Of a stretch of 64,000 bases of DNA, positions 4,374-28,004 are shown piece by piece. Numbering within the stretch: the first letter of the stretch is position 1; each line of letters opens with the position of its first letter. Origin of the DNA: Jiangella mangrovi (lineage in GTDB: Bacteria; Actinomycetota; Actinomycetes; Jiangellales; Jiangellaceae); the NCBI RefSeq assembly GCF_014204975.1, contig NZ_JACHMM010000001.1:1302001-1366000 (forward strand), given 5' to 3'. A program made the translations under genes and the position numbers. Below the pieces are notes generated by a model. The model did no database searches, was not told where the DNA came from, and saw only the letters and a program-made list of their open reading frames with translations.

Positions 4374-5684
4374 ATGGAGCATCGGTCCGCCTCGCGCCCG
4401 TCGGTCGCGGTGATCGGGTCCGGCGTCGCCGGACTCACCGCCGCCCACCTGCTGCAGCGCCGCTACGACGTGCACCTGTTCGAGGCCGACGACCGGCTCG
4501 GCGGCCACGCGCACACCCACGACGTCCCGGGACCGGACGGCGGCGCGCCGATCGCGGTGGACAGCGGGTTCCTGGTGCACAACGAGCGCACCTATCCGCA
4601 GCTGGTCCGGCTGTTCGGCGAACTGGGGATCGCGACCACCGAGACCGACATGTCGATGAGCGTGAGCTGCCGGTCCTGCGGGCTGGAGTACGCCGGCGCG
4701 CTGGGCCCGAACGGCGTGTTCGCCCAGCGCCGGTCCGTGGCCCGGCCCCGGTTCCTGTGGATGCTGGGCGAGATCACGGCGTTCCACCGGCGGGCGCGGG
4801 CCCTTCTGGCCGGCGCCGATGCGGGGGACGACGGGCTCACGCTCGGCGCGTTCCTGGCCCGGCACCGGCACACGCCCTACTTCACCGACCACTTCGTCGT
4901 GCCGCTGGTGTCGGCGGTCTGGTCCGCCGGCCGCGACGACGCGCTGGCCTACCCCGCGCGCTTCCTGTTCCGGTTCCTCGACAACCACGGCATGCTCGCC
5001 GTCGGCGGGTCGCCACGCTGGCGCACCGTCACCGGCGGGTCGCGCAGTTACGTGGAACGGGCGGCCAAGAACCTCACCTCGGTGCGCACGGCCACGCCGG
5101 TGCGTGGCCTGCGCCGCGGCGCCGACGGCGTGTGGCTGCGGGAGGCGTCGGACACGGTGCACCGGTTCGACCACGCCGTCGTGGCGACACACGCCGACCA
5201 GGCGCTGCGGCTGCTCGAGGACCCGACGCCGGCCGAGCGCGACGTGCTCGGGACGTTCGGGTTCTCGGTCAACGAGACCGTCCTGCACACCGACGCGACG
5301 CTGCTGCCCCGCGAGCGGCGGGCGTGGGCGTCGTGGAACCACGTGGTGCCGTCGTGCGGGGACGGCGCCGGGGCGGCCGGGGCCCAGGCGCCGGTCGCGA
5401 TCTCGTACCACCTGAACCGGCTGCACCGACTGGGGGCGGCGGGTGGGCGGGAGTACGTCGTCACGCTCGGAGCCACGGACCAGGTGGCCGCTGACGCCGT
5501 CGTCGCCCGCATGGTCTATGCGCACCCGATCCACACGGTCGAGACCGTGGCGGCGCAGCGGCGGCTGCCGGATCTCGCCACCGGCCGGACGGTGTACGCC
5601 GGCGCCTGGCACGGGTGGGGCTTCCACGAGGACGGCTGCGCGTCGGGGGTGCGGGCGGCCGCCCACCTGGGGGTCGCGTGGTGA
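4374..5684 (+). CDS. FAD-dependent oxidoreductase (COG2907 amine-oxidase fold)
   Basis: Flavoprotein of 436 residues, probably acting on fatty-acyl chains together with the downstream methyltransferases; the exact reaction is not known from sequence. A dinucleotide-binding motif sits at the N-terminus ('VAVIGSGVAGLTAAHLLQRRYDVHLFEADDRLGGHAHT'), followed by the family signature 'DSGFLVHNERTYPQLVRLFGELGI' and a C-terminal FAD loop ('TVYAGAWHGWGFHEDGCASG'). It matches the family of mycobacterial Rv0449c in the sigK locus and of the oxidoreductase in the proteobacterial RpoE-ChrR regulon. ATG 4374 is chosen because it lies 7 nt after a SigK-type -10; an upstream in-frame ATG (4323) would lie inside the promoter. 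The stop overlaps the next start in a GTGA. Confidence 0.88.
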   Translation: MEHRSASRPSVAVIGSGVAGLTAAHLLQRRYDVHLFEADDRLGGHAHTHDVPGPDGGAPIAVDSGFLVHNERTYPQLVRLFGELGIATTETDMSMSVSCRSCGLEYAGALGPNGVFAQRRSVARPRFLWMLGEITAFHRRARALLAGADAGDDGLTLGAFLARHRHTPYFTDHFVVPLVSAVWSAGRDDALAYPARFLFRFLDNHGMLAVGGSPRWRTVTGGSRSYVERAAKNLTSVRTATPVRGLRRGADGVWLREASDTVHRFDHAVVATHADQALRLLEDPTPAERDVLGTFGFSVNETVLHTDATLLPRERRAWASWNHVVPSCGDGAGAAGAQAPVAISYHLNRLHRLGAAGGREYVVTLGATDQVAADAVVARMVYAHPIHTVETVAAQRRLPDLATGRTVYAGAWHGWGFHEDGCASGVRAAAHLGVAW

Positions 5685-6409
5685 CGGCGCCGGCGCTCTA
5701 CGCGGCGCGCGTCAGGCACACCCGGTACGAGCGGGTGCGCCGCACGTTCGGCTACCGCACCTACCTGTGGCTGGTCGACGTCGACGACCTGCCGAGGCTG
5801 CCGCGGCCGCTGCGTGCCCTCGCGGCGTTCCGGGCCCGCGACCATTTCGCCGGTTCCGCTCCCACGATCCGGGCCGGGCTGGAATCGTGGCTGGCCACCC
5901 GGGGTATGACTCTGGACGGCGGTCGCGTGCTCATGCTGGCCAACGCTGCCGTGCTGGGCTACGTGTTCAACCCGATCACGGTGTTCTGGTGCCTCGGCGC
6001 CGGCGGCGAGACGGTCTGCGTCGTCACCGAGGTGCACAACACCTACGGGGGCCGGCACGCCTACGTCCTGCGACCTGACGAGCAGGACCGGGCGACGACC
6101 GCGAAGGAGCTGTACGTGTCGCCGTTCTTCCCCGTCGACGGCAGCTATGCCATGACGGTCCCCCGCCCCGGCCGGCGGCTGCGGCTGTCGGTCACGCTCA
6201 CGCGTCCCGGTCCCGACGGCGACCGGCTCGCGTTCGCCGCGTCGCTGACCGGCCGGCGCCGCCCCGCCACCGTCCCCCACCTGTTCCGGCTGCTGCTGCG
6301 CCACCCCTGGGCACCGCTGCGGGTCACCGCGCTGATCCGCTGGCAGGGCATCCGGCTCTGGCTGCGCCGCGTGCCCGTCGTGCCCCGGCCTCAGGGGGAG
6401 CCGAGATGA
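5681..6409 (+). CDS. DUF1365 family protein
   Basis: Protein of 242 residues of the DUF1365 family, the constant partner of the COG2907 oxidoreductase and CFA-type methyltransferases. Family features seen are 'YAARVRHTRYERVRRTFGYRTYLWLVDVDDLP', 'VLGYVFNPITVFWCLGAGGE', 'VVTEVHNTYGGRHAYVL' and 'KELYVSPFFPVDGSYAM'. Its biochemical role is unproven; context suggests lipid modification. The GTG start at 5681 overlaps the upstream stop (GTGA) and gives the usual N-terminus, and the stop overlaps the next ATG. Translation of the whole operon is therefore chained. Confidence 0.88.
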   Translation: MTAPALYAARVRHTRYERVRRTFGYRTYLWLVDVDDLPRLPRPLRALAAFRARDHFAGSAPTIRAGLESWLATRGMTLDGGRVLMLANAAVLGYVFNPITVFWCLGAGGETVCVVTEVHNTYGGRHAYVLRPDEQDRATTAKELYVSPFFPVDGSYAMTVPRPGRRLRLSVTLTRPGPDGDRLAFAASLTGRRRPATVPHLFRLLLRHPWAPLRVTALIRWQGIRLWLRRVPVVPRPQGEPR

Positions 6410-7653
6410 CCACGCTCACCGAGATCGACGCCGGTCTCTGGCCCGACGTCGCCCGCGTGCCGGCGGCGGGTGCGGCCCGGCTCCGCGCGGCCCGGACGGC
6501 GATCGCCCACGCCACGCGCGTGGCCGGAGTCCGGCTGCGCGAGGCGGGCGGCGCCGACGCGCCCGGTGACCGGCCGCCCGGCGACCGGCGGCCCGTGCTC
6601 GAGGTGCTGCGGCCGCACGAGTTCTACGCGCGCCTCGGCCGTGACGGGCTCATCGGCTTCGGCGAGGGCTACATGAGCGGCGCCTGGACCGCGCCGGACC
6701 TCGCGGGACTGCTGACGGCGTTCGCCGCCCGGCTCACCAGCCTGGTGCCGCCGCCGCTGCAGAAGCTGCGCCGGGCGTTCCAGCCATCGATGCCGGCCGC
6801 GGAGCTGGCCGACCGCGCGGGCGCCCGGCGCAACGTCAGCCGCCACTACGACCTCTCCAACGAGCTGTTCGCGCTGTTCCTCGACCCGACCATGACCTAC
6901 TCGTCGGCGCTGTTCGAGCCCGGCGACGACCTCGAGCGGGCCCAGCTGCGCAAGATCGACGCCGTCCTCGACGCCGCCTCCGTCCGGCCGGGCTCGCGGG
7001 TGCTCGAAATCGGCACCGGCTGGGGCGCGCTGGCGGTCCGCGCCGCCACCGAGCGCGGGGCGCGCGTCACCACCGTCACGCTGTCGGAGGAGCAGGCGCG
7101 GCTGGCCCGTTCACGCGTCGAGGCGGCAGGGGTGGCGGATCTGGTGGACATCCAGGTGCGCGACTACCGCGACGTCGAGGGCCGCTACGACGCCGTCGTC
7201 AGCGTCGAGATGATCGAGGCGGTCAGCGAGCGGCACTGGCCGGACTACTTCGCCGCGCTGGGCCGGGCGCTGGCGCCGGGCGGACGGGTCGGGCTGCAGG
7301 CCATCACCATGCCGCACGACCACCTGCTGGCCACCCGGCACTCGTGGACCTGGATCCACAAGTACGTCTTCCCCGGCGGGCTGATCCCGTCGGAGGTCGC
7401 GATCCGGGCGCACGCGCTGCGCGACGGCGGGCTGGCCGTGCTGCAGCGCCGCTCGTTCGGCGCGCACTACGCCGAGACGCTGCGGCAGTGGCGCGAGCGG
7501 TTCCTGGCCGCCGCGGACGCCGTCAGCGCGCTCGGCTTCGACCCGGTGTTCCGGCGGATGTGGGAGTTCTACCTCGCCTACTGCGAGGCCGGCTTCCGCA
7601 CCGGCCGGCTGGACGTCGAGCAGTACACGCTCGGGGCAGGAGGGGTGCGATGA
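6406..7653 (+). CDS. Cyclopropane-fatty-acyl-phospholipid synthase family methyltransferase
   Basis: SAM-dependent enzyme of 415 residues that should transfer a methylene or methyl group to an unsaturated acyl chain of membrane phospholipid. SAM motif I is 'VLEIGTGWGALAVRAATERGARV'. It is followed by 'DAVVSVEMIEAV', the CFA loop 'WIHKYVFPGGLIPS', and the C-terminal 'YLAYCEAGFRTG', which keeps the conserved Tyr and Cys of the family. Length and motifs are those of a full CFA synthase. It corresponds in position to mycobacterial ufaA1 in the sigK locus. The ATG overlaps the DUF1365 stop (ATGA). Whether it makes cyclopropane, methyl-branched or furan-type products cannot be told from sequence. 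Confidence 0.9.
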   Translation: MTTLTEIDAGLWPDVARVPAAGAARLRAARTAIAHATRVAGVRLREAGGADAPGDRPPGDRRPVLEVLRPHEFYARLGRDGLIGFGEGYMSGAWTAPDLAGLLTAFAARLTSLVPPPLQKLRRAFQPSMPAAELADRAGARRNVSRHYDLSNELFALFLDPTMTYSSALFEPGDDLERAQLRKIDAVLDAASVRPGSRVLEIGTGWGALAVRAATERGARVTTVTLSEEQARLARSRVEAAGVADLVDIQVRDYRDVEGRYDAVVSVEMIEAVSERHWPDYFAALGRALAPGGRVGLQAITMPHDHLLATRHSWTWIHKYVFPGGLIPSEVAIRAHALRDGGLAVLQRRSFGAHYAETLRQWRERFLAAADAVSALGFDPVFRRMWEFYLAYCEAGFRTGRLDVEQYTLGAGGVR

Positions 7654-8867
7654 CGACGGCGACCGCGGATCGGTTGCACGGGCTGCTCGGGGACGTCCTC
7701 GGCGCGGAGCCGCCGGTGCGGATCCGGGCCTGGGACGGCAGCCTGGCCGGCCCCGCCGATGCGCCCGTCGTGGTGCTGCGCTCGCCCATGGCGCTGCGCC
7801 GGCTGCTGTGGCGGCCCGGCGAGCTGGGCCTGGCCCGTGCGTACGTCGCCGGCGACCTGGACGTCGAGGGCGATCTCGGCGCGGCGTTCTCGCACACCCG
7901 GTCCGCGTTCGCGGCGCGGCAGACGAGACCGCGGCCGGCCGCCGTCCGGTCGGCGTGGCGGGCGGCGCGCGACTGGCGGCTCATCGGCGCACCGCCGCCG
8001 GCCCCGCCCGAGGAGGCCCGGCTGCGCGGACGGCGGCATACCCAGCGCCGCGACCGCGCGGCCATCAGCCACCACTACGACCTCGGCAACGACTTCTACG
8101 AGCTGCTGCTGGACGAGACCATGGCGTACTCGTGCGGCCTCTGGACGCCCGAGATGGGCGACGGCGACGGCGCGGCGGCGTCGCGGGCCAAGCTCGACCT
8201 CGTCTGCCGCAAGCTGGAGCTGCACCCCGGCGACCACCTGGTCGACGTCGGCTGCGGGTGGGGCTCGCTGGTGCTGCACGCGGCCGCCGAGTACGGCGCC
8301 CGGGTCACGGGCTACACGATCTCGCGGTCGCAGGCGGAGTACGTGCGCGAGCGGATCGCGCGGGCCGGACTCGGCGACCGGGCGACCGTCGAGCTGCGCG
8401 ACTACCGCGACATCGGCGACACCGCGGCCGACGCCGTCGCGTCGATCGAGATGGGCGAGCACGTCGGCCAGGAGCGCTACCCGGAGTACGCGGCGGTGCT
8501 TCACCGGATCGTCCGTCCCGACGGACGGCTGCTGCTGCAGCAGATGTCGCGAGGGCCGCAGGCGGCCGGCGGCGGGGCGTTCATCGAGTCCTACATCGCG
8601 CCGGACATGCACATGCGCCCGCTGCCCGAGACGCTGCGCATGGTCGCCGCCGCCGGGTTCGAGCTGCGCCACGTCGAGGCGCTGCGCGAGCACTACGTGC
8701 GCACGATCCGGTTCTGGGCCGGCCGCCTGGAGTCGCACTGGGACGATGTCGTCGCGCTGGCCGGCGAGCGGACCGCGCGGGTCTGGCGGCTCTACCTCGC
8801 CGGCGGCGCGGCCGCGTTCGACGAGGGCCGCATGGGCGTCGACCAGATCCTGGCGGAGCGGCGCTGA
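7650..8867 (+). CDS. Second CFA-synthase-like SAM methyltransferase, divergent
   Basis: Paralogue of the preceding gene, 405 residues, started at the ATG that overlaps its stop (ATGA). The N-terminal lipid-binding part ('FVRSPMALRRLLWRPGELGLARAYVAGDLDVEGDL'-like) and SAM motif ('DHLVDVGCGWGSLVLHAAAEYGARVTG') are intact, as is 'HHYDLGNDFYELLLDETMAYSCG'. The active-site region differs: the usual KYIFPGG loop reads 'ESYIAPDMHMRPL', and the 'YCEAGF' segment reads 'YLAGGAAAFDEG', so the family cysteine is absent. This suggests a different acyl-chain methylation from the first enzyme; two-methyltransferase sets of this kind occur in regulons that make modified fatty acids. Function beyond SAM-dependent lipid methylation is inference. 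Confidence 0.85.
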   Translation: MTTATADRLHGLLGDVLGAEPPVRIRAWDGSLAGPADAPVVVLRSPMALRRLLWRPGELGLARAYVAGDLDVEGDLGAAFSHTRSAFAARQTRPRPAAVRSAWRAARDWRLIGAPPPAPPEEARLRGRRHTQRRDRAAISHHYDLGNDFYELLLDETMAYSCGLWTPEMGDGDGAAASRAKLDLVCRKLELHPGDHLVDVGCGWGSLVLHAAAEYGARVTGYTISRSQAEYVRERIARAGLGDRATVELRDYRDIGDTAADAVASIEMGEHVGQERYPEYAAVLHRIVRPDGRLLLQQMSRGPQAAGGGAFIESYIAPDMHMRPLPETLRMVAAAGFELRHVEALREHYVRTIRFWAGRLESHWDDVVALAGERTARVWRLYLAGGAAAFDEGRMGVDQILAERR

Positions 8868-9688
8868 TGGGCGGCGTCGCCTGGGCCGGGCTCGGGCCGA
8901 ACCTCGGGCTCACCGCCGCGGCCGTCGTCGTGCTCATGGCCGGCGTCGTCCTGTGGGTGGCCCGTGGCGGCGCCGCCGTCGTCATCGACACCGTCTGGGG
9001 CGCCGGGTTCGCGCTCGTGGCCGTGGTCGGCTGGGTGGCGTCGGCCGGCGACGGCGACGACGTGCTGCGGGCGGTGGTCACCGTCCTCACCGTCGCCTGG
9101 GGCGTCCGCCTCGCCGTCCACCTGCACCGGCGCAACCACGGCAAGGGCGAGGACCCGCGCTACGAGGACCTGTTCGCCCGGCACGACGGGGGCCGGGTGC
9201 GCGTGACGGCGCTCTGGGTCTGCCTTCCGCAGGCGGTGATCCTCTGGTTCGTCTCGCTGCCGGTGCAGGTGGCGCAGTACATGACGCTGGAGCCGGCGTG
9301 GTGGCTGGTCGGGCTGGGCGTCGTGGTGTGGGCGGCCGGGCTGGTCCTCGAGGCCGTCGGCGACTGGCAACTGGCCCGGTTCAAGGCCGACCCGTCGAAC
9401 CGCGGGCGGATCATGGACCGCGGGCTCTGGCGCTACACGCGGCACCCCAACTACTTCGGCGACGCCTGCGTCTGGTGGGGCCTGTGGCTGTGCGCGTGCG
9501 TCACCTGGCCGGGCGCCGCCACCGTCGCGTCGCCGCTGCTCATGACGTTCGTGCTGGCGCGCGGGACGGGCAAGCCGCTGACCGAGAAGCGCATGGCCGA
9601 GCGGCCCGGCTACGCCGAGTACGTCCAGCGGACCAGCGGCTTCGTCCCGCTGCCACCCCGTCAGAGGTCGAGCAGGGGGTCCGGGTAG
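8867..9688 (+). CDS. DUF1295 / steroid 5-alpha-reductase-like membrane protein
   Basis: Membrane enzyme of 273 residues, last gene of the lipid operon. Six or seven hydrophobic segments are followed by the family C-terminal signature 'RGLWRYTRHPNYFGDACVWWGLW', shared with isoprenylcysteine methyltransferases and steroid reductases. Members usually reduce or modify a lipid C=C bond; here it likely finishes the acyl-chain modification begun by the flavoprotein and methyltransferases. The start overlaps the upstream stop by one base (TGATG). The 3' end overlaps the convergent photolyase by 28 bp. The mycobacterial counterpart lies next to sigK (Rv0446c, as I recall it). Confidence 0.87.
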   Translation: MGGVAWAGLGPNLGLTAAAVVVLMAGVVLWVARGGAAVVIDTVWGAGFALVAVVGWVASAGDGDDVLRAVVTVLTVAWGVRLAVHLHRRNHGKGEDPRYEDLFARHDGGRVRVTALWVCLPQAVILWFVSLPVQVAQYMTLEPAWWLVGLGVVVWAAGLVLEAVGDWQLARFKADPSNRGRIMDRGLWRYTRHPNYFGDACVWWGLWLCACVTWPGAATVASPLLMTFVLARGTGKPLTEKRMAERPGYAEYVQRTSGFVPLPPRQRSSRGSG

Positions 9689-10989
9689 TCCAGCTCCTTG
9701 CGCTCGTCATCCGGGAGCGTCCACGGCGTGTGGACGGCGGCGCCGTCGACGTCGCGCAGCTCGGGGACGTAGCGGCGGACGTAGGCGCCGTCGGAGTCGA
9801 ACCGCTTGGCCTGACGCAGCGGGTTGAGGACGCGGTTGGGCCGGGTGTCGTTGCCGGTGCCCGCCACCCACTGCCAGTTGCCAGCGTTGTTCGCGACGTC
9901 GCCGTCGACCAGCCAGCGGAAGAAGTGCGCGGCGCCGTCGCGCCAGTCGATGCGCAGGTTCTTGGTGAGGAACGAGGCCGTGACCAGCCGCGCGCGGTTG
10001 TGCATCCAGCCCTCGCGCAGCAGTTGGCGCATGCCGGCGTCGACGATCGGCACGCCCGTGCGGCCCTCCTGCCAGGCCCGCAGCGCGTCGGCGTCGTCGC
10101 GCCATTCGACGTCACGGCGCCGGTAGTCCTTCGTGGCGACGGACGGGACCGCCGCCGTCACCTGGTGGTGGAAGTCGCGCCAGGCCAGCTGCCGGACCTG
10201 CTCCGGGGCGCGGTCGACCAGCCGGTTCGCCGCCTCGAGCGGCGAGACGCAGCCGAAGTGCAGGTACGGGCTGAGCCGCGAGGTCCGGTCGCCGGCGAGG
10301 TCGTCGAGGTCCGGTTCGCCGTCGCCGGCCCGTCTGACGGCCGCGTCGAGGACGGCGCGCCCGGCGGTCTCGCCACCGTCGGGCAGGTCGGGCGACGTGT
10401 CGCCGTCGGCCAGCTCGCCGGCGAACGGGAGCCGGCCGATGCGATCGACGGCCTGACCACCGGGAATCGTCCGGGGGGCCGCGAGCTGCCGGCGCCAGTC
10501 GACGGCGTCCCAGGCCCGCCAGTACGGGGTGAAGACACGGTAGTGGTCGCCGCCGGCCGGGAGGAGCGCGCCGGGCGGCACCACCGTCACACCGGGGTAG
10601 GTCGTGAACCGTACGCCCTGCTGCGCGCACGCGCCGGCCAGCCGGCGCTCGCGGCGCTGGGCGTAGCCGCTGACATCGGCGCTGCACACGAGCGCCGTCG
10701 CCCCGGCCTCGGCGACCACCGCGATGGTCTCCTCGACCACGTCGCCGCGGCGCAGCACCAGGTCGCCGCCGCGCTGCCGCAATTGCTCGCGCAGGTCGGC
10801 CAGCGCCCGGGCGAGGAACGCGGCCCGGTTGGGCGCGGCGAACCGGCCGCCCAGGATCGCGTCGTCCAGCACGAACAACGGCACCACCCGGTCGGCGTGC
10901 TCGCAGGCCGCGGCCAGCGCCGGGTGGTCGCGCACCCGCAGGTCGCGGGTGAACAGCACCACTGCCGTCTTCTCCATCGTCGGACTCAT
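9661..10989 (-). CDS. phr: Deoxyribodipyrimidine photolyase (class I CPD type)
   Basis: Light-driven flavoenzyme of 442 residues that splits UV-induced pyrimidine dimers. The N-terminal antenna domain begins 'VVLFTRDLRVRDHPALAAACE'. The FAD/DNA domain shows 'WRDFHHQVTAAVP', 'GRTGVPIVDAGMRQLLREGW', 'HNRARLVTASFLTKNL' and 'NWQWVAGTGNDTRP', which are the FAD and lesion-binding segments of class I photolyases. I choose ATG 10989 over the in-frame ATG 10977 because it lies exactly 7 nt after a SigK-type -10 box, as in three other genes here. It is divergent from the Rossmann-fold gene, with overlapping promoters. Co-regulation of a photolyase with CFA-type genes also occurs in proteobacterial singlet-oxygen regulons. 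Confidence 0.92.
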   Translation of the reverse strand: MSPTMEKTAVVLFTRDLRVRDHPALAAACEHADRVVPLFVLDDAILGGRFAAPNRAAFLARALADLREQLRQRGGDLVLRRGDVVEETIAVVAEAGATALVCSADVSGYAQRRERRLAGACAQQGVRFTTYPGVTVVPPGALLPAGGDHYRVFTPYWRAWDAVDWRRQLAAPRTIPGGQAVDRIGRLPFAGELADGDTSPDLPDGGETAGRAVLDAAVRRAGDGEPDLDDLAGDRTSRLSPYLHFGCVSPLEAANRLVDRAPEQVRQLAWRDFHHQVTAAVPSVATKDYRRRDVEWRDDADALRAWQEGRTGVPIVDAGMRQLLREGWMHNRARLVTASFLTKNLRIDWRDGAAHFFRWLVDGDVANNAGNWQWVAGTGNDTRPNRVLNPLRQAKRFDSDGAYVRRYVPELRDVDGAAVHTPWTLPDDERKELDYPDPLLDL

Positions 10990-10996
10990 ACCCGTC

Positions 10997-11023
10997 ATTC
11001 GAGGCCCATCCGCCCCCGGATGG
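10997..11023 (-). promoter_or_regulatory. Predicted SigK promoter of the photolyase gene
   Basis: Minus strand: CCATCC (11023-11018), 15 bp, TCGAAT (11002-10997), 7 nt, then ATG at 10989. The core overlaps the plus-strand promoter at 11006-11032 by 18 bp, so the two cannot be occupied at once. Confidence 0.72.
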
Positions 11024-11032
11024 GGTACGAAT
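11006..11032 (+). promoter_or_regulatory. Predicted SigK promoter of the DUF2867 gene
   Basis: CCATCC (11006-11011), 15 bp, ACGAAT (11027-11032), 7 nt, ATG at 11040. The -35 boxes of the two divergent promoters form an inverted repeat (CCCATCC / GGATGGG) around 6 bp. Confidence 0.72.
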
Positions 11033-11039: not shown

Positions 11040-12488
11040 ATGAGGGTTCTCGTCGCCGGCGCGACCGGCTACATCGGCAGCCGTCTGGTCCCGCGGCTGG
11101 TCGACGCCGGGCACACCGTCCGCTGCCTCGCCCGCGACCCCGGCAAGCTGCGCGACCAGCCGTGGGCCGGCGACGTCGAGGTCGTGCGCGGCGACGTGCT
11201 GGACCGCGCGAGCCTCGACCCTGCCATGGCCGGCGTCGACGTCGTGCACTATCTGGTGCACTCGCTGGCATCGCGCGGGTTCGCGGCGACGGACCGGCGG
11301 GCGGCGGCGACGGTGGCAGCGGCGGCCGCCGACGCGGGGGTGCGCCGGCTGGTCTATCTGGGCGGCCTGCATCCGCCGGCCACCGCCGGGCTCTCGGACC
11401 ACCTGGCGTCGCGCACCGAGGTGGGCCGGATCTTCCTCGACGGGCCGGTGCCGGCGGTCGTGCTGCAAGCCGGGGTCGTCATCGGGTCCGGCTCGGCCAG
11501 CTTCGAGATGCTGCGCTACCTCACCGAGCGGCTGCCCGTCAGCGTCACGCCGCGCTGGGTGCACACCCGCACCCAGCCGATCGCGATCCGCGACGTGCTG
11601 GCCTACCTGGTCGCGGCCACCACGCTGCCGGACGAGCCGAACCGGACCTTCGACATCGGCGGGCCGGAGGTGCTGACGTATGCGGACATGATGCGCGGCT
11701 ACGCACGGGTCGCCGGGCTGCCCCGGCGAGTGATCGCGCCGGTGCCGCTCCTGACGCCGTGGCTGTCCGCGCAGTGGGTCAACCTGGTGACGCCGGTACC
11801 GCGGTCCATCGCCGTCCCGCTGATCGAGTCGCTGGAGCACGAGGCCGTCTGCACCGAGGACGACCTGCGCGACCTGCTGCCCGGACCGGTCGACCCGACA
11901 CCGTACGAGCGGGCCGTCGAGCTCGCGCTGGCCCGCATGCGCGACGGCGAGGTCGAGAGCCACTGGTCCGCCGCCTCGCCCGCCGGCGCGCCGTCGGATC
12001 CGCTGCCCAGCGACCCGTCCTGGTCCGGCGGCTCGGTGCGGGTGGACGAGCGCTCGGTCCGGTGCGACGTGCCGCCGGAGCGGCTCTGGCGCGTGGTCGA
12101 GGGCATCGGAGGCCAGAACGGCTGGTACTCGTTCCCGCTGGCCTGGGCGGTGCGCGGCTGGGCCGACCGGCTCGCCGGCGGCGTCGGCCTGCGCCGCGGC
12201 CGCCGCGATCCCGCCCGCCTGCACCTCGGCGAGGCCCTGGACTGGTGGCGCGTCGAGGCGATCGAGCCCGGCCGGCTGCTGCGGCTGCGCGCGGAGATGA
12301 AGGTCCCGGGGAGCGCCTGGCTCGAGCTCTCCGTCACCCCCGACGGCGACGGCTCCGTCTACGGCCAGCGCGCGGTCTTCGTGCCGCGCGGCCTGACCGG
12401 GCAGGTGTACTGGTGGATGCTGTGGCCGTTCCACGGCGTCATCTTCGGCGGCATGGCTCGCAACATCATCCGCACGGCGGCCCGGTAG
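11040..12488 (+). CDS. NAD(P)-binding Rossmann / DUF2867 two-domain protein
   Basis: Protein of 482 residues with two parts. Residues 1-290 are an atypical short-chain dehydrogenase fold ('MRVLVAGATGYIGSRLVPRLVDAGHTVRCLARD', 'VVHYLVHSLASRGFAATDRRAAATV'). Residues about 330-480 are a DUF2867 domain ('RVVEGIGGQNGWYSFPLAWAVRGWADRLAGG', 'DWWRVEAIEPGRLLRLRAEMKVPGSAWLEL'). The dehydrogenase part resembles quinone/NAD(P)H-binding NmrA-like proteins. Substrate is unknown; SigK control points to an oxidative or envelope-stress role. The ATG lies 7 nt after the -10 box with no ribosome site, so the mRNA should be leaderless. Confidence 0.85.
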   Translation: MRVLVAGATGYIGSRLVPRLVDAGHTVRCLARDPGKLRDQPWAGDVEVVRGDVLDRASLDPAMAGVDVVHYLVHSLASRGFAATDRRAAATVAAAAADAGVRRLVYLGGLHPPATAGLSDHLASRTEVGRIFLDGPVPAVVLQAGVVIGSGSASFEMLRYLTERLPVSVTPRWVHTRTQPIAIRDVLAYLVAATTLPDEPNRTFDIGGPEVLTYADMMRGYARVAGLPRRVIAPVPLLTPWLSAQWVNLVTPVPRSIAVPLIESLEHEAVCTEDDLRDLLPGPVDPTPYERAVELALARMRDGEVESHWSAASPAGAPSDPLPSDPSWSGGSVRVDERSVRCDVPPERLWRVVEGIGGQNGWYSFPLAWAVRGWADRLAGGVGLRRGRRDPARLHLGEALDWWRVEAIEPGRLLRLRAEMKVPGSAWLELSVTPDGDGSVYGQRAVFVPRGLTGQVYWWMLWPFHGVIFGGMARNIIRTAAR

Positions 12489-12601: not shown

Positions 12602-14662
12602 TCAGCTCGGCTTGCGTGCCGCCGAACGGCTGCGGTTGCGGTGGTTGGGCCACCAGACCTTGTCGCCGAGGTCGTAGGCGAGGGCGGGGACGAGGAGTGA
12701 GCGGACGACGAAGGTGTCGAGCAGGACGCCGAAGGCCACGAGGAAGGCGATCTGGGCCAGGAACAAGATCGGGATCACCGCGAGCGCCGAGAACGTGGCG
12801 GCGAGCACCAGCCCGGCCGACGTGATGACGCCGCCGGTGACGGCCAGCCCGCGCAGGACGCCGGGCCGCGTGCCGATGCGCACGGACTCCTCGCGGACCC
12901 GGCTCATGAGGAAGATGTTGTAGTCGATCCCCAGCGCCACCAGGAACACGAATGCGAACAGCGGCACGCCGGGGTCGGCGCCGGGCCAGCCGAGGACGTG
13001 GTCGAAGACCACCCCTGCCACCCCGAGGGTCGCGGCGAAGCTCAGGACGACGGTGAGCACCAGCAGCACCGGCGCGAGCACGGAGCGCAGCAGCCCGATC
13101 AGCACCAGCAGGATCACCCCCAGCACCACCGGGATGATCAGCGTGCGGTCGCGGGCGGAGATGTCGTTGGTGTCCAGCAGCTCCGCCGTCCGGCCGCCCA
13201 CCAGCACGTCCGGGCCGACGTCGTCGAGGGAGGTACGCAGCTCGCGGACGGTGCTCACCGCGGCGTCGCTGTCGGCGGGCTCGGCGAGGGTCAGCTCGAG
13301 CAGCGCGCGGTCGCCGGCGATCTGCGGGTCGGGGGCGTTGGCCGCCGGGCTCACGCCGTCGACGGCCGCGGCCACCCGGGCGACGTCAGCCGCGTCGTCC
13401 GCGCCGCTCAGCACGAGTACCGGCGAGCCGGAGCCGCCCGGGAAGTGCCGGCCCAGCGCCTCCTGGCCCGCGACCGCCTCGACCCGGTCGAGGAACAGCT
13501 CGCTCTCGCTGACGCCGTCGGCACGGAAGGTGGGCACGAGCGCCGCCAGCGCCAGCAGCACCGCGCCGACCCCGGCCCACAGCGCCCGCGGACGCCGTCC
13601 CACCAGCCGGGCGACGCGATCCCACACGCCGGCGTGCTCCGGGGCCGTCGAGCCGTACCGCGGCCGGAACGGCCAGAACGCCGCCCGGCCGAGCAGCACC
13701 AGCACGGCGGGCAGGAACGTCAGCGCCACCAGCAGCGAGGCGGCGATGCCGATGGCGGCCACCGGGCCCAGGCTGCGGTTGGAGTTCAGGTTCGACAGCA
13801 GCAGGCAGAGCACGCCGGCGATGACGGTGCCGCCGGACGCCACGATGGGCCCGGCCGCCCGGCGCAGCGCCGTGGCCATCGCCTCGAACCGGCCGCGGTG
13901 CTCGCGCAGCTCCTCGCGGTAGCGGGCGACCAGCAGCAGCGCGTAGTCGGTCGCGGCGCCGACGACGAGGATCGACATGATGCCCTGGCTCTGCCCGTTC
14001 AGCGTCAGCGTGCCGGCGTCGGCCAGCAGGTACACCAGCCAGGACGCCAGCCCCAGCCCGAGCACCGACGACACCAGCACGGCGAGCGGCAGGATCGGGC
14101 TGCGGTAGACCACCAGCAGGATCACCAGCACGACCGCCAGCGCCACCACCAGGAGCACGCCGTCGATGCCGGCGAACGCCGCACCGAGGTCCGCGGCGAA
14201 CCCGGCCGGCCCGGTCAGGTGCACGGCGGCGCCCGCGGCCTCGCCGAGCTCGGCCCGGATGTCCTCGACGACGGCGTCGACCTCGGCCGAGCCGGACGTG
14301 TCGATCTGGACGACGGCGGTGAGCGCGCTGCCGTCCTCGGACGGGATGGGCGGGCTGACCGGCGGGGTGACGCCGTCGAGCCCGGCCACCCGCTCGAGCT
14401 GGGCCGCGGCCTCGTCGGCGGCGTCGGGGGCCAGTCCGTCCGGGTCCTCCCAGACCACGACCGCGGGCAGGACGTCGGCGTCCTGGAAGTCCGCCCGCGC
14501 GTCGGCGACCTCGGTGGACTCGGCGTCGGAGGGCAGGAATGCGGCGTTGTCGTTCTCGGCGACCTCGCCGAGCCGGCCGGCGTACGGTCCGCCGACGGCG
14601 CCGACGGCCAGCCAGCCGAGCAGCAGGAGGACGGGTAGCAGCCAGCGCAACCGGGTGGCCAT
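12602..14662 (-). CDS. MMPL/RND-family membrane transporter
   Basis: Membrane protein of 686 residues expected to export lipids or drugs using the proton gradient. The architecture is the MMPL duplication: one TM helix, a periplasmic loop (about 30-155), five TM helices (about 160-350), a second TM ('RALWAGVGAVLLALAALVPTF') with a second loop, and a final five-helix bundle ('VFLVALGIDYNIFLMSRVREE'). The first bundle has 'GAATDYALLLVARYREELREH', the conserved GxxxDYxxf..R element with its proton-relay Asp-Tyr. I start at ATG 14662 with AAAGG 7 nt upstream; this places the start downstream of a palindrome that is probably the operator of the adjacent marR-like gene. Confidence 0.88.
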   Translation of the reverse strand: MATRLRWLLPVLLLLGWLAVGAVGGPYAGRLGEVAENDNAAFLPSDAESTEVADARADFQDADVLPAVVVWEDPDGLAPDAADEAAAQLERVAGLDGVTPPVSPPIPSEDGSALTAVVQIDTSGSAEVDAVVEDIRAELGEAAGAAVHLTGPAGFAADLGAAFAGIDGVLLVVALAVVLVILLVVYRSPILPLAVLVSSVLGLGLASWLVYLLADAGTLTLNGQSQGIMSILVVGAATDYALLLVARYREELREHRGRFEAMATALRRAAGPIVASGGTVIAGVLCLLLSNLNSNRSLGPVAAIGIAASLLVALTFLPAVLVLLGRAAFWPFRPRYGSTAPEHAGVWDRVARLVGRRPRALWAGVGAVLLALAALVPTFRADGVSESELFLDRVEAVAGQEALGRHFPGGSGSPVLVLSGADDAADVARVAAAVDGVSPAANAPDPQIAGDRALLELTLAEPADSDAAVSTVRELRTSLDDVGPDVLVGGRTAELLDTNDISARDRTLIIPVVLGVILLVLIGLLRSVLAPVLLVLTVVLSFAATLGVAGVVFDHVLGWPGADPGVPLFAFVFLVALGIDYNIFLMSRVREESVRIGTRPGVLRGLAVTGGVITSAGLVLAATFSALAVIPILFLAQIAFLVAFGVLLDTFVVRSLLVPALAYDLGDKVWWPNHRNRSRSAARKPS

Positions 14663-14690
14663 GGAACGACCTTTCGTTCGATGGTCGAAA

Positions 14691-14707
14691 ATCTCGATCG
14701 TCGAGAT
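14691..14707. promoter_or_regulatory. Predicted MarR-family operator
   Basis: ATCTCGA-TCG-TCGAGAT, a perfect 7-bp palindrome around 3 bp, between the marR stop and the MMPL start. Short TCTCGA-type palindromes are typical of MarR operators, and the position suits repression of the exporter. Confidence 0.6.
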
Positions 14708-14708
14708 A

Positions 14709-15218
14709 TTACCCGCGAGCGGCCGCGTCACGCTCCCGGTGAGCGACGAGCGCCTCGAGCGCCGTCGCCAGGAACCGCTGCACGACGTCGAGGTCGTGCT
14801 CGTCGTAGGCCGTGAGCCGGTCCGCCATGTCGGTGGCGAGCGGCCCGAAGTACGCCGGCCCCAGCGCGGCGGCCGACGGCTCGAGCCGGACCAGCACCCG
14901 GCGCCGGTCGCGCGGGTCGGGCTCGCGGCGCAGGTGGCCCGACGCGACCAGCCGGTCGATCAGCGCCGTCACCGACGCCGACGACAGCCCCAGCTCGCGG
15001 CCGATGCTCCCGGCCGTGACGTCGCGGCCCTCGCGAGCCGCCGCCACCAGGACCAGCAGCGCGCGGGCGGCGGAGTGGTCGATGTCGTGGGCGGCGCCGA
15101 AGCGGCGAGCGAGGTCGGCCATCTCGGCGCCGAGCGTCTGGAGCTGCCGGATGACGGCGTCGGTGCGCGCGTCCCTCGCCCCCGCCTCGCCCGGCATCTC
15201 CGTCGCCATGGGGTTCAT
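14709..15218 (-). CDS. MarR-family transcriptional regulator
   Basis: Winged-helix repressor of up to 169 residues that probably controls the MMPL exporter immediately downstream. The helix-turn-helix and wing read 'TAGSIGRELGLSSASVTALIDRLVASGHLRREPDPRDRRRVLVRLEP', the MarR signature with the DxRxxR wing. Two in-frame ATGs are possible (15218 and 15209). GGGAG upstream is better spaced for the second, so the protein may be 166 residues. It is transcribed in the same direction as the exporter, so the two may form an operon with an internal operator-regulated promoter. Confidence 0.85.
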   Translation of the reverse strand: MNPMATEMPGEAGARDARTDAVIRQLQTLGAEMADLARRFGAAHDIDHSAARALLVLVAAAREGRDVTAGSIGRELGLSSASVTALIDRLVASGHLRREPDPRDRRRVLVRLEPSAAALGPAYFGPLATDMADRLTAYDEHDLDVVQRFLATALEALVAHRERDAAARG

Positions 15219-15272
15219 GCTCCCAGACGACGGGGTACGGCACGGGCACCGAGGTGAAGGGAGGGGTCCCCG

Positions 15273-15653
15273 ATGACCTGGCCCGTTCGAGTGCTGGGAG
15301 GGCTGACCGCCGGCTACGGCGTCGCCGTCGCCGTCCGCCCCGAGGTCCTCGCCCGGCCCTGCGAGCTGGTGGAGCCCGACGGCTCGCTGACGCCGTCGAC
15401 GCGGATCCTGTGCCGTGCCATCGGCCTGCGCGACGCCGCCTCCGGCACCGCAATGCTGACCGCGCCCGCCGGCGCCGCCCTGACCTGGGCGACGACCGTG
15501 CGAGTAGCGGCCGACACGGCCGACGCCGTCGGCTTCGGGCTGACCCTGCCGTCGGCCCGGGCGCGGCGCAATGCCGCGCTCGTGGCCGGCGGCTGGGCTC
15601 TGCTCACCGCCGCGGCGGGTCTCAGATCGGCGGCATCAGGACGCCGTCGATGA
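15273..15653 (+). CDS. Small hydrophobic protein of unknown function
   Basis: Protein of 126 residues with three or four hydrophobic segments ('[17 protein letters not shown]', '[37 protein letters not shown]', '[17 protein letters not shown]'), so probably in the membrane. The ribosome site is strong (GGAGGGG, 6 nt before ATG). The pattern with an early Arg/Asp pair ('[12 protein letters not shown]') resembles DUF4267-type proteins, but I am not sure. It stands alone, divergent from marR, and its 3' end overlaps the convergent fasciclin gene by 32 bp. Confidence 0.7.
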
Positions 15654-16323
15654 GGTAGACGGTGGCGTTGGCCGTCGTGACACCGCCGCAGACGACGTTG
15701 GCGTCGTTGACGGTCATCGCGTCCGGCGTGCCGGCCACGGTCACGGTCGCACCCTGGACGGTGGTCTGCTCACCGATCACCTGGTCGGGCGTCAGCTGAC
15801 CGGGCACCACGTGGTACGTCAGCACCGTCGTCAGCAGGTCGGCGTCGGTGCCCAGCGTCTGCAGCGTGGCCGGGTCGACCGCGGCGAACGCGTCGTCGAC
15901 CGGCGCGAACACGGTGAACTCGCCGCCGTTGAGGGTGTCGACGAGGTTCACCTCCGGGTTGAGCTCCCCGGACACCGCCGAGACCAGCGTGGTGAGGATC
16001 GGGTTGTTCGACGCGGCCACGGCGACCGGGTCGTCGGACATGCCCTCGACCGAGCCCTCGCCGTCGGGGACCTGGGCGGCGTAGTCGGCGCAGCCCGGGC
16101 CGACCGGACCGGCCATCGGCTCCTCGGTCATCTCGTCGGCCGGGGTGCTCTCCTCGTCCTCGGGCGTCTCCATCGCGGAGTCGTCCTCGGGAGCGGCGGA
16201 GCTGTCGCCGTTGCCGCCGGCGGTCGAGTCGTCGCCGCCGTCGTCGCCACAGGCGGACAGGGTCAGGGTCAGGGCGGCCGCCGTCGCGAGGAGGACGGGG
16301 ACTCGCCTGGTCAGGAGCTTCAT
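15622..16323 (-). CDS. Fasciclin-domain lipoprotein (MPT83/MPT70-like)
   Basis: Surface lipoprotein of 233 residues. The signal peptide ends in a lipobox ('ALTLTLSAC'), followed by an acidic, low-complexity linker (about 25-70) and one fasciclin/beta-Ig-H3 domain ('[40 protein letters not shown]', '[20 protein letters not shown]', '[12 protein letters not shown]'). Mycobacterial MPT70 and MPT83 are fasciclin proteins and the classic SigK targets, which fits this gene lying 62 bp downstream of a SigK-promoted oxidoreductase. The start has an AGAGGA site. The role is adhesion or envelope structure by family; an exact function is not known. Confidence 0.88.
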
Positions 16324-16385
16324 GAGGGGTTCCTCTCGGATCGTGTGGTCGGAAGGTGCTCGTTCGTGCTCGGTGGTGCTCTGTC

Positions 16386-17975
16386 TCAGCTCACGCGCAC
16401 CACCACCGAATGCCAGCCGCTCGATCCGTCCGGGAACGGCGGCGCCTGCTCGTCGGTCTGGACCTCGCCCGCGCCGTCGGTCGCACGGACCCGCAGGGTG
16501 TGGTTGCCCGGCTCGGCGTCCCACTCCCAGAACCACTGGCGCCAGGTGTCGACCGAGGCCTCGGCGGCCAGCTCGGCGGCCTGCCAGTCGCCGTCGTCGA
16601 CCCGCACCTCGACGGCTCGCACGCCGCGGTGCTGCGCCCAGGCGGTCCCGGCGACGACGGTGCGCCCGGCGGTCACGTCCGCGAACGAGCCGGGGACGTC
16701 GATGCGCGACGCGGTCTTGATCGGCGCCTTCGCGGCCCAGCCGCGGTCGGTCCAGTAGGCGGTGGCGCGGTCGAACCGGGTCAGCTCGAGGTCGGTGACC
16801 CACTTCGTCGCCGACACGTAGCCGTACAGGCCGGGCACCACGAGGCGGGCCGGGAAGCCGTGCTCCACCGGCAGCGGCTCGCCGTTCATGCCGATGGCCA
16901 GCATCGCGTCGCGCCCGTCGGTGATGACGTCCAAGGGCGTGCTCGCCGTGAAGCCGTCGACGCTGGTCGAGAGGAGCATGTCCGCGTCGTCGGCCGGACG
17001 CGCGCGGGCCAGCAGGTCGGCCAGCGGGTACCCGAGCCAGACGGCGTTGCCGGCCAGCTCACCGCCGACCTCGTTCGAGACGCAGGTCAGCGTGATCATC
17101 CGCTCGACCAGGTCCAGCTCGAGGACGTCGTCGAAGTCCAGCTCCAGCTCGCGCTCGACCAGCCCGTGGATGCGCAGCCGCCACTCGTCGGGGACGACCT
17201 TGGGGACGTCCAGGGCGGTGTCGACGCGGTAGAAGTCGCGGTTCGAGGTGGTGAACGGCGTCGCCCCCTCGACGTCGACGGCGGTACCGGCCGGGACCGC
17301 CGGCGCCGGGTCGGCCGGTGCCGGCAGCCGCAGCGCGTCACGGGCATCGCGGACCTCGGCCAGCGTCTGCCCGAACCGCCGCCCGCCGAGCGCCATCACC
17401 ACGGCCAGTCCCGCCACGGCCGCCGTCAACAGCAGGACCTGGCGGCGCGGCGGCTGCGGCCGCTGCGGCGGCCGTGCGGCGGATACGGACTCCCCCGAGA
17501 CCCTCGGATCCGCATCCGCCGCACGGGTCCGCAGCCGGCCCACGAGGAGGGTGAGCGCGGCGGCACCGGCGACGGCTCCCGCGGCGGTAGGGAGCGCCCA
17601 GGCCGCGTCTGCCGTCGGGCGGTTCAGGGCAGCAGCGGCGGCCACCGCACCGAGAACGGCCAGCACCGTCACGCCGGCCCAGCGGCGCCAGAGCTCCAGC
17701 AGCCCGCCCGCCGCCGACACGACCAGCAGGACGACGGCCATGCCGGCCAGCAGGACCTGCTTGTCGTTCTCGCCGAACGTGCGGATCGCGAAGCTCTTCA
17801 GCCACTCCGGCGTGAGATCGACGAACGTGTTGCCGACGGCCAGGAACGGCGCGGCGGCCGGTTCGACGACCAGGGCCGCGACCAGCTCGCCGACGCCCAG
17901 CGTCAGCCCGCCCGCCGCGATCCCGGCCAGGGCGGCCAGGCCTCGGGTGCGCCAGCGGTGCGTCGTCGCGGTCAT
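16386..17975 (-). CDS. Membrane-anchored molybdopterin-dependent oxidoreductase (sulfite-oxidase fold)
   Basis: Protein of 529 residues. The N-terminus holds five or six TM helices (about 12-185), then a linker with one more helix ('[19 protein letters not shown]'), then a sulfite-oxidase/MsrP-type Mo-cofactor domain facing outward. The Mo ligand is C298 in '[13 protein letters not shown]', with '[29 protein letters not shown]' as the second signature. A C-terminal Ig-like dimerisation domain follows ('[13 protein letters not shown]', '[22 protein letters not shown]'). It should oxidise or reduce a small sulfur or oxo substrate at the cell surface. ATG 17975 is 7 nt after a SigK-type -10. The fasciclin lipoprotein gene follows. 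Confidence 0.88.
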
Positions 17976-17982
17976 GCCCCGT

Positions 17983-18011
17983 GTTCGGCGCGGCCCGTGA
18001 CCCGGATTGGT
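17983..18011 (-). promoter_or_regulatory. Predicted SigK promoter of the oxidoreductase-fasciclin operon
   Basis: Minus strand: ACCAATCC (18011-18004), 15 bp, CCGAAC (17988-17983), 7 nt, ATG at 17975. Boxes and spacings equal those at sigK and the lipid operon, 14 kb away. Confidence 0.75.
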
Positions 18012-18175
18012 GCGGGTCTTGGAATCAACCGTTCGGCCCACGCCGTCCACAGGTGCGGCGGGTTCGCGGGGTTGTCCACATTTCGCGGTTCGCCGGTGGA
18101 ACGCGGCGCCGCTGCCAGCAAGAGTGGCGGCATGCCGAACAGCAGTGCGAAACTCTCGAGAACAGGAGAAGCCAG

Positions 18176-18757
18176 ATGGTGGTGGTCGACATGCCCGCGG
18201 TCGAACTCCCGACCGGTCCGCGATGGTGGACGTTCGACGATCTCCTCGAGCTGCCCGAATCCGACTGGCGGTTCGAGATCGTCGACGGCGGTCTGCTCAT
18301 GACCCCGGGGCCGGGCCTCTGGCACGAGTCCGTGTCGGACTTCCTGCGGGCACGGCTCCGCGCTGCGCTGCCGCCCGGCTTACGCATCCTCGGCCCGGTC
18401 ACGGTCGACATCGACCCGACCTTCCTGATCCCCGATCTCATGGTGCTGCCCCACGATGTCGTTCGCCGCGGCGGTGCGAAGGCCATGGCCGCCGAGGCGC
18501 TCCTCGTCATCGAGATCGTCTCGCCGGGGTCGGTCTCCATCGACCGCATCCTCAAGCCGGCCAAGTACGCCGAGGCGGGCATCCCGCACTTCTGGCGGGT
18601 CGAGTTCCAGCCCGAGCTCAGCCTCACGGCGTACGCGCTGCCCGAGGGCACTTCCGCCTACACCGAGGTGGGCACCTGGACGGCCGGACAGACGGCACCC
18701 ATCCGGGCGCCGTTCGAGGTCGACATCGAGATCGCGGAACTCGCTCCGGACCGTTGA
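18176..18757 (+). CDS. Uma2/DUF820 family PD-(D/E)XK nuclease-like protein
   Basis: Protein of 193 residues of the Uma2 family (restriction-endonuclease fold, function not established). Seen: 'WTFDDLLELPESDWRFEIVDGGLLMTPGPG', 'VDIDPTFLIPDLMVL' and 'ALLVIEIVSPGSVSIDRILKPAKYAEAGIPHFWRVE'. The core contains the family Asp (IPDL) and the E-x-V element, with a Lys of the 'RILKPAKY' helix. ATG 18176 has GGAG 7 nt upstream. The roughly 165 bp before it hold no gene. It is a single gene with no toxin-antitoxin or restriction partner beside it. Its stop overlaps the likely -35 of the ABC exporter. Confidence 0.8.
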   Translation: MVVVDMPAVELPTGPRWWTFDDLLELPESDWRFEIVDGGLLMTPGPGLWHESVSDFLRARLRAALPPGLRILGPVTVDIDPTFLIPDLMVLPHDVVRRGGAKAMAAEALLVIEIVSPGSVSIDRILKPAKYAEAGIPHFWRVEFQPELSLTAYALPEGTSAYTEVGTWTAGQTAPIRAPFEVDIEIAELAPDR

Positions 18758-27668: not shown

Positions 27669-28004
27669 TCACCCGTGAGCGGTCTCGTACTTCGCCAGGA
27701 TGTCCGACGGAATGCGTCCCCGGTCGGACACCTTGAGGCCCTGGTCGCGGGCCCACTCACGGATCGCGGTGGTGTCGGTGCGGCTGGCTCGTCCGCCGGT
27801 GGCTGCTGCGCGCCCGCGTCCCCGCCGAGCCGAGGCACGACGCGCCGAGGCGACGTACGGAGCCAGGGCGTCGCGGAGTTTGCCGGCATTCTTCGCCGAC
27901 AGATCGATCTCGTACGAGGCGCCGTCCAGGGCGAAGCTCACGGTCTCGGTGGCTTCACCACCGTCGAGATCGTCGAGCAGAATCACCTGAACCTTTTGTG
28001 CCAT
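27669..28004 (-). CDS. lsr2: Lsr2 nucleoid-associated protein
   Basis: Actinobacterial xenogeneic silencer of 111 residues; it dimerises and bridges AT-rich DNA. The N-terminal dimerisation domain is 'MAQKVQVILLDDLDGGEATETVSFALDGASYEIDLSAKNA'. The middle is basic. The C-terminal domain 'IREWARDQGLKVSDRGRIPSDILAKYETAH' carries the RGR AT-hook-like motif. GGAAGGA lies 6 nt before the ATG. Position downstream of lysS is conserved across actinobacteria; here an acetyltransferase gene lies between. A promoter in an AT-rich patch directly upstream suggests it can silence itself. Confidence 0.96.
   Translation of the reverse strand: MAQKVQVILLDDLDGGEATETVSFALDGASYEIDLSAKNAGKLRDALAPYVASARRASARRGRGRAAATGGRASRTDTTAIREWARDQGLKVSDRGRIPSDILAKYETAHG

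Follow-up and report, generated by a model that had tools for sequence, protein, structure and literature searches.

A molybdopterin oxidoreductase and an MPT83-like fasciclin lipoprotein share a SigK-type promoter within a putative envelope redox regulon of Jiangella mangrovi

The closest described relatives of the gene set considered here are the SigK–RskA regulon of mycobacteria and the RpoE–ChrR singlet-oxygen regulon of Rhodobacter. In the mycobacterial locus, SigK promoters are known for mpt83, dipZ and mpt70 (PMC9861118). The stimuli of SigK–RskA "remain obscure" (PMC9861118), and no explanation of the role of the SigK-controlled fasciclin antigens was found in the literature covered. 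In Rhodobacter sphaeroides, the singlet-oxygen regulon of RpoE includes cfaS, phrA, RSP_1091, RSP_1090 and a fasciclin gene (PMC7074977), and RSP_1091 and RSP_1090 are named ufaD and ufaO (PMC7380195). UfaO, which contains DUF1365, makes furan fatty acids, and for UfaD an NAD-FAD-binding domain is predicted (PMC7380195). The RpoE/ChrR proteins of R. capsulatus, which are induced by singlet oxygen, are 34%/25% identical to SigK/RskA of Mycobacterium tuberculosis and resemble SigK and RskA more than they resemble their R. sphaeroides namesakes (PMC7074977). The present analysis concerns a window of 64 kb from the 7.16-Mb single-contig genome of Jiangella mangrovi (contig NZ_JACHMM010000001.1, positions 1,302,001 to 1,366,000; coordinates below are those of the window), in which sigK and rskA lie near a gene pair for a molybdopterin oxidoreductase and an MPT83/MPT70-like fasciclin lipoprotein. 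The regulon is of a known kind, and a molybdo-enzyme as a partner in it was not found described for SigK–RskA in the parts of the open-licence literature covered.

The oxidoreductase gene (16386–17975, minus strand, 529 aa) encodes a membrane-anchored enzyme with five transmembrane (TM) helices and a sulfite-oxidase-fold domain, as indicated by PF00174, hydropathy and an AlphaFold model. It lies upstream of the fasciclin gene (15622–16323, minus strand, 233 aa; PF02469 and a match to PDB 1nyo), which is next on the same strand after a gap of 62 bp. The preliminary description had placed at 15622–17975 an enzyme with its own TM domain followed by a fasciclin lipoprotein, about 12 kb from sigK and behind the same promoter. 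Both genes are there, 11.4 kb separate the fasciclin stop codon from the start of sigK, and the motif CCAATCC-N16-CGAA stands upstream of the oxidoreductase gene, of sigK and of the divergent UfaD-like gene. In the SigK-type site of the pair (17984–18010, minus strand), CGAA ends only 8 bp before the ATG, and the mRNA of the pair is therefore probably leaderless. The exact motif occurs four times in the genome, three of them in the window, and the backward-pattern control gave none. When the site was searched together with 8 bp and RTG, with no or one mismatch, four places in the genome were found, all in the window, namely those of the pair, the UfaD-like operon, the photolyase gene and the DUF2867 dehydrogenase gene. 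Chance as the origin of the shared promoter was rejected by reversed or shuffled controls. A SigK site belonging to the window fasciclin itself was also rejected, since none was seen by eye in the 62-bp gap, and no terminator-like or sigma70-like site was found in 15200–18200.

We propose that the oxidoreductase and fasciclin genes may form one SigK-dependent operon, in a SigK–RskA regulon whose recognised members would lie almost wholly inside 16 kb and which would serve envelope redox defence, with a photo-oxidative signal as its probable trigger. This explanation, taken as a whole and with all its parts together, is in our judgement evenly balanced between being right and being wrong.

The remaining members of the putative regulon also lie in the window. 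The ECF (extracytoplasmic function) sigma factor gene sigK (3664–4257, minus strand) was assigned by NCBIfam NF007228 (260.3 bits, cut-off 226), and rskA for the anti-SigK protein (2927–3667, minus strand; PF10099 and PF22618, RskA_C and RskA_N both above cut-off and RskA_C with E 3.7e-27) is directly downstream. The genome pattern searches placed a SigK-type site for sigK–rskA at 4300–4326 (minus strand), which is not of the leaderless form, and one for the UfaD-like operon at 4339–4365 (plus strand), 8 bp before the ATG. That operon, read on the plus strand, comprises genes for a FAD amine oxidoreductase (4374–5684, PF01593), taken as UfaD-like from its FAD domain and operon position, a protein with the DUF1365 domain of UfaO (5681–6409, PF07103), two CMAS-type fatty-acyl methyltransferases (6406–7653 and 7650–8867, both PF02353), the first of them presumably UfaM-like, and a DUF1295 membrane protein (8867–9688, PF06966). 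By its domains, this operon next to sigK resembles one for a pathway to furan fatty acids. Two sites of the CCCATCC form, each 8 bp before an ATG, overlap between divergent genes: 10998–11024 (minus strand) precedes the DNA photolyase gene (9661–10989, minus strand; PF03441 and PF00875), the start of which was set by this leaderless promoter, and 11005–11031 (plus strand) precedes the gene for a NAD(P)-binding DUF2867 dehydrogenase (11040–12488, plus strand; PF11066 and PF13460). The observation in the preliminary description is thus right and, as read from the DNA, larger than was seen there, taking in putative promoters of the photolyase and DUF2867 genes, a furan-fatty-acid-like operon and a set of genes like that of a singlet-oxygen response.

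Several further features were noted in this genome. A small open reading frame on the plus strand (15273–15653), without a Pfam family, shares 32 bp (15622–15653) with the fasciclin gene at the 3' end of the latter. Between the fasciclin and DUF2867 genes, a MarR and an MMPL transporter are encoded (12602–15218); the light-induced loci of M. kansasii also include the MarR regulator crtR and MmpL genes (PMC9861118). A local dip in G+C content (66% in 28001–30000) coincides with lsr2-like and lysyl-tRNA synthetase-like genes (27669–30170, named by eye) and is ordinary. The fourth exact CCAATCC site of the genome (5.297 Mb; G000:C1:5297387; L193:3388-5012) is ahead of two genes, one for a secreted CHRD-like protein, with a CHRD match that does not reach the Pfam cut-off, and one for a sortase. 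Next to the SigK cluster of Haloactinopolyspora, a gene resembling the CHRD-like one by eye also has a SigK-type site ahead of it (L008:13841). J. mangrovi further encodes another paralogue of the oxidoreductase with 55% identity (G000:C1:3557779-3559293, L087), which has no fasciclin neighbour within 5 kb and no exact SigK-type site.

The distribution of the pair was examined in a sample of 198 Actinomycetota genomes, with thresholds of E <=1e-15 for the fasciclin and E <=1e-40 for the enzyme. The fasciclin was present in 25 genomes and the enzyme in 90, and 24 genomes had both (Fisher p for co-occurrence 1.4e-8, relatedness not corrected). In 13 of these 25, belonging to ten families including that of Jiangella, the enzyme gene is directly upstream of the fasciclin gene on the same strand, adjacency being judged by eye from coordinates. 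The idea that the pair is a peculiarity of Jiangella was rejected on these counts, and rarity outside the genus, which would have spoken against the preliminary description, was not seen. Among 79 loci with relatives of the enzyme, picked by homology, 23 have the enzyme, the MPT83-like fasciclin, sigK and rskA together within 10-kb flanks, in the genera Jiangella, Haloactinopolyspora, Phytoactinopolyspora, Arthrobacter, Nocardia, Dietzia, Actinomadura and Smaragdicoccus. Among named organisms, Jiangella ureilytica (92% identity) and J. muralis (90%) have the closest relatives of the oxidoreductase. The expectation that the two genes do not have separate promoters fits Jiangella, where a single SigK-type promoter precedes the pair, but does not extend to Gordonia and Dietzia, where the genes are divergent, or to three Arthrobacter loci, where the fasciclin gene is behind its own site. 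Nocardia jejuensis has two sigK–rskA pairs within a single locus (L011:434-9877), one behind a ufaD-type operon and one between the fasciclin and oxidoreductase genes.

SigK-type sites recur at these loci. Loci L006–L084 carried 71 sites compared with 5 on the reversed sequence, and the spacer was exactly 16 in 48 of the 54 sites found within 300 bp upstream of the enzyme, fasciclin or sigK genes of 139 loci, with start codons estimated by script. Two of these loci, L056 and L091, yield the same protein but belong to different sets. Among the 60 best enzyme matches of the 198-genome draw, excluding that of the window, the exact site stood at the enzyme gene in 6 of the 13 loci linked to a fasciclin and in none of the 47 unlinked ones; the corresponding counts in the homologue-picked set were 15 of 34 and 3 of 45. 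When sites at either the enzyme or the fasciclin gene were counted, these values were 7 of 13 and 29 of 34 linked loci, respectively. With one mismatch allowed, a site was near the enzyme start in 25 of 47 linked loci and in 23 of 92 fasciclin-free loci (shuffled, 0.3% and 0.6%). Of these 23 fasciclin-free enzymes, 18 had the site exactly 8 bp from the start, 16 of them in Micrococcaceae. Since sites also occur at fasciclin-free enzymes, it may be the enzyme and not the pair that SigK targets more steadily.

The leaderless form was further searched in all 198 genomes, giving 28 sites in 24 genomes, four of them those of J. mangrovi itself, with 3 in the control. According to the next gene downstream, 13 of the 24 sites in other genomes could be assigned, to the enzyme (4), the fasciclin (2, with one some 0.5 kb from the gene), sigK–rskA (1), DUF1365–sigK (2, genomes G038 and G074), DipZ (1) and cupredoxin lipoproteins (3). 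In genome G150, sites are ahead of a fasciclin gene, a DipZ gene and a second fasciclin gene; this arrangement is the known mpt83–dipZ–mpt70 layout and serves as a positive control for the pattern. Exported redox proteins are, on these assignments, a recurring theme among putative SigK-type targets, and the surface-redox role suggested in the preliminary description gains support. The cupredoxin lipoproteins behind leaderless sites are at L246, L255 and L262, one of them divergent from sigK–rskA. In the preliminary description, mycobacteria were taken to have no such enzyme with their SigK-controlled fasciclins. This holds for adjacency, because the enzyme adjoins the fasciclin in none of the four fasciclin-bearing genomes of family f4, which we infer to be Mycobacteriaceae; in one of them, G150, the redox gene next to the fasciclin is that of DipZ. 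However, a fasciclin-free metagenome contig of Mycobacterium (L019) has a SigK-type site 54 bp ahead of its enzyme copy.

Compared with the mycobacterial regulon, that of Jiangella has the same SigK and RskA families and an MPT83-like fasciclin behind a SigK site. The M. tuberculosis sigK locus Rv0449c–Rv0444c presumably also has FAD enzyme, DUF1365, CMAS and DUF1295 genes beside sigK, as in Jiangella. The Jiangella set differs in that the partner of the fasciclin is a molybdo-oxidoreductase and not DipZ, the photolyase and DUF2867 dehydrogenase genes are behind SigK-type promoters and the ufaD operon is divergent from sigK–rskA. In the mpt83–sigK–rskA minimal cassette, the fasciclin gene adjoins sigK–rskA, as in several of the homology-picked loci, whereas the main text of that paper, as covered, contains neither "molybd" nor "oxidoreductase" (PMC7509140). 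The likeness to the RpoE–ChrR regulon of R. sphaeroides is in gene content, since there a single ECF regulon unites a photolyase, a cyclopropane-type methyltransferase, UfaD, UfaO (DUF1365) and a fasciclin (PMC7074977, PMC7380195). The Jiangella set, with its presumed UfaD and UfaM, would thus place a photolyase, furan-fatty-acid-type genes and a fasciclin under one ECF sigma factor, which is the gene content of a singlet-oxygen regulon. The two differ in that R. sphaeroides has a ChrR-type sigma/anti-sigma pair with measured induction, whereas the Jiangella set is known from sequence alone, and in that the part of the R. sphaeroides regulon table covered has no sulfite-oxidase-fold enzyme, whereas Jiangella has one. 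Neither a SigK–molybdo-enzyme link nor a SigK photo-oxidative regulon was recognised in the portions of the open-licence literature covered.

Three genomes of family f3 also have the fasciclin, the ufaD–DUF1365–methyltransferase–DUF1295 genes and sigK–rskA together, with the photolyase gene in two and the DUF2867 gene in two. In 20 control stretches, taken at chosen round coordinates in 11 genomes, none of these families exceeded 60 bits, and two weak SigK-like matches exceeded 40 bits. Furthermore, mpk83 and mpk70 of M. kansasii, homologues of MPT83/MPT70, are induced by light (PMC9861118), and RskA was lowered by UV in the actinobacterium strain Act20 (PMC8965627). The light link appears strong in Jiangella and the three f3 genomes and thin elsewhere. 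In three f3 genomes (L266, L267 and L270), a secreted protein with the motif SASSHREAPLI, which we take to be DUF4331-like, is encoded divergently from sigK and has its own SigK-type site. In two f4 genomes (L203 and L205), genes for MPT83-like fasciclins have a photolyase-family gene no more than about 3 kb away.

Several results weigh against the proposed regulon. At the threshold used, the fasciclin is missing from 66 of the 90 genomes with the enzyme, and the partnership is thus not obligatory. On the enzyme tree, built from 138 of the 139 loci, one with a protein of <350 aa being left out, together with the window row, fasciclin linkage is scattered over 17 changes, with at least 13 gains or losses forced. 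The changes are fewer than in shuffled data (mean 40.1; 0 of 500 shuffles as low), indicating that linkage is clustered, but with so many forced changes the tree does not establish a single ancestral origin. An exact site is missing from both the enzyme and the fasciclin gene in six of the 13 fasciclin-linked loci of the 198-genome draw, and 11 of the 24 leaderless sites in other genomes have no assigned target, with 3 sites in the reversed control. Within J. mangrovi, the shorter exact motif CCATCC-N16-CGAA occurs at 13 places (control 2), 2 in the window and 11 outside it, and the leaderless form with up to two mismatches occurs at 36 places compared with 17 in the control, so that this looser level is largely chance. 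Among 19 further sigK–rskA neighbourhoods (SigK >140 bits), the photolyase gene was present in 1, the ufaD operon in 1 and DUF1365 in 3; the 40 RskA neighbourhoods were taken mostly by rank, about one per genome and leaving out those already fetched, with G091 and G188 chosen for a known site, which raises the counts. Among the 25 fasciclin regions, photolyase was found in 4 and ufaD in 3. Finally, a Streptomyces plasmid has a ufaD–DUF1365–CMAS–DUF1295 run with no sigK or fasciclin listed in the 27 kb shown, the gene table being incomplete. A MerR gene adjoins this plasmid run, and one molybdopterin protein there is next to a FAD-binding protein.

The window fasciclin itself is a true relative of MPT70/MPT83 by sequence comparison. 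PF02469 was found with E 2e-26, the best PDB match was MPT70 (1nyo; E 8.7e-60, residues 74–232), and a lipobox-like LSAC is visible by eye within the signal peptide. A possible carotenoid-binding role was weighed on the match to AstaP (8c18), a protein termed neofunctionalised (PMC10147662), and this match is weak (E 5.1e-5). The window fasciclin may instead be an adhesin or a matrix component, placed in the same regulon but in no functional or physical partnership with the enzyme, a reading that we hold at a confidence somewhat below even. The fasciclin-domain protein Fdp of R. sphaeroides is described as adherence-associated (PMC7561615), and the layout is variable, given the divergent genes in Dietzia and Gordonia, the many fasciclin-free enzymes, and fasciclins that are beside DipZ (G150) or without either redox protein in f4. 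However, the order of enzyme first, same strand and directly adjacent recurs across the ten families mentioned above, which argues for a partnership.

It is rather unlikely, in our view, that SigK answers a general thiol or redox imbalance of the envelope and not light, with the molybdo-enzyme, DipZ and cupredoxins as interchangeable extracytoplasmic redox carriers and the photolyase and lipid genes as lineage additions. Cys142 and Cys192 of SigK, each present in 23 of 28 aligned SigK proteins, presumably correspond to the cysteines of the redox pair in SigK of M. tuberculosis. The recurrent assigned targets among the 24 sites include redox proteins, photolyase is found in just 1 of the 19 further sigK neighbourhoods, and the title of a paper cited in PMC9861118 names the redox sensitivity of the SigK–RskA complex, all of which would fit a thiol signal. 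In contrast, photolyase and UfaD/DUF1365 genes have SigK-type sites in Jiangella and are clustered in three f3 genomes, and the light induction of mpk83/mpk70 and the singlet-oxygen response of the SigK-like RpoE of R. capsulatus point to light (PMC9861118, PMC7074977).

The enzyme is a member of the sulfite oxidase superfamily, as indicated by PF00174 (residues 255–404, E 7.3e-44), an invariant molybdenum-binding Cys (Mo-Cys) and its fold. Hydropathy gave five hydrophobic helices (19–37, 74–92, 99–117, 127–145 and 180–198), and the AlphaFold model (mean predicted local distance difference test score 85.8) likewise shows helices, followed by a two-domain sulfite-oxidase fold. A twin arginine like that of the twin-arginine translocation (Tat) system, RR177–178, is just ahead of TM5. 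In an alignment of 139 rows including that of the window, with gaps set aside, each of these arginines is 99% conserved and the molybdenum-binding Cys298 is 100% conserved. In the Sco3746 family of dual Sec/Tat polytopic molybdo-proteins, five TM helices, a twin arginine before TM5 and a C-terminal molybdopterin domain are likewise found, but that family has two predicted b hemes bound by His of TM2–TM4 (PMC5449189), whereas the TM helices of the Jiangella enzyme have no His and such hemes would be absent. Residues 1–230 contain His6 only, and no column there has His in 25 or more aligned rows. MsrP (YedY) is a soluble protein without the C-terminal domain and works with MsrQ. The enzyme resembles MsrP in its superfamily, twin-arginine export, Val after Mo-Cys and lack of Arg at Mo-Cys +5 in the alignment, and differs in identity (24–25%) and fold (Z 17).

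The model fold is closest to chicken sulfite oxidase, SorA and bacterial sulfite and sulfane dehydrogenases (Z near 29 across some 300 residues), and the best sequence matches are SoxC and SorA. Membership in any sulfite dehydrogenase or MsrP family named in NCBIfam was rejected, because the scores were below every cut-off (SoxC, SorA and SorT, 105.5, 103.1 and 79.4 bits versus 420, 600 and 570; MsrP, 55.4 versus 207). Arg at Mo-Cys +5 has a role in sulfite binding. This position is Arg in the SorA rows (CSGNSR) and Val303 in the enzyme, with Val in 94% of the family. The SoxC row likewise lacks the Arg, and Val303 therefore does not exclude a SoxC-like activity; sulfur oxidation is one possible activity of the enzyme, and the sulfite or methionine-sulfoxide chemistry suggested in the preliminary description is backed by none of the named models. 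The Tyr of the stretch AYWTDRGW aligns with a SorA Tyr that has a catalytic role. It is nevertheless improbable, and the least probable of the alternatives, that the enzyme acts as a dehydrogenase of sulfite, sulfane or thiosulfate, detoxifying surface sulfur species with the fasciclin as its docking or wall-retention partner, since the closest folds and matches and the shared Tyr, which favour this, are set against the replacement of the SorA Arg by Val and scores far under the SoxC, SorA and SorT cut-offs.

Considering these results, we propose the following scenario for the SigK–RskA regulon of envelope redox defence. RskA would free SigK in response to an oxidant reaching the envelope, singlet oxygen or some other product of light or UV being the most likely one, and a presumed redox-sensitive cysteine pair of SigK perhaps helps this release. 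Freed SigK would raise DNA photorepair, rebuild membrane lipids through methylated or furan fatty acids and direct the synthesis of the exported molybdo-enzyme, which the Tat system would export and its five helices would anchor. The enzyme would then reduce or repair oxidised groups outside the membrane, methionine sulfoxide being our first guess as read from the regulon, with electrons supplied, as a further guess, by the quinone pool or by small carriers like cupredoxins. As for the MPT83-like lipoprotein, it may be the surface partner or client of the enzyme and could hold hydrophobic quenchers or substrates. DipZ would fill the redox place beside the fasciclins in mycobacterial loci arranged as mpt83–dipZ–mpt70.

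More tentatively, and with the balance of our judgement somewhat against it, SigK–RskA could be the actinobacterial counterpart of the singlet-oxygen sigma system, with an old core of surface photo-oxidative defence made up of photolyase, furan fatty acids, an exported molybdo-repair enzyme or DipZ, and the fasciclin; MPT83 and MPT70 would then descend from its surface-repair or quencher protein. The compact SigK regulon of Jiangella, a soil actinobacterium, names candidate partners for SigK-controlled fasciclins, namely an exported molybdo-enzyme, a photolyase and furan-fatty-acid-type genes, and its fixed promoter grammar can be searched in any genome. The gene setting in Jiangella furthermore makes the signal that SigK may answer testable with singlet oxygen or light.

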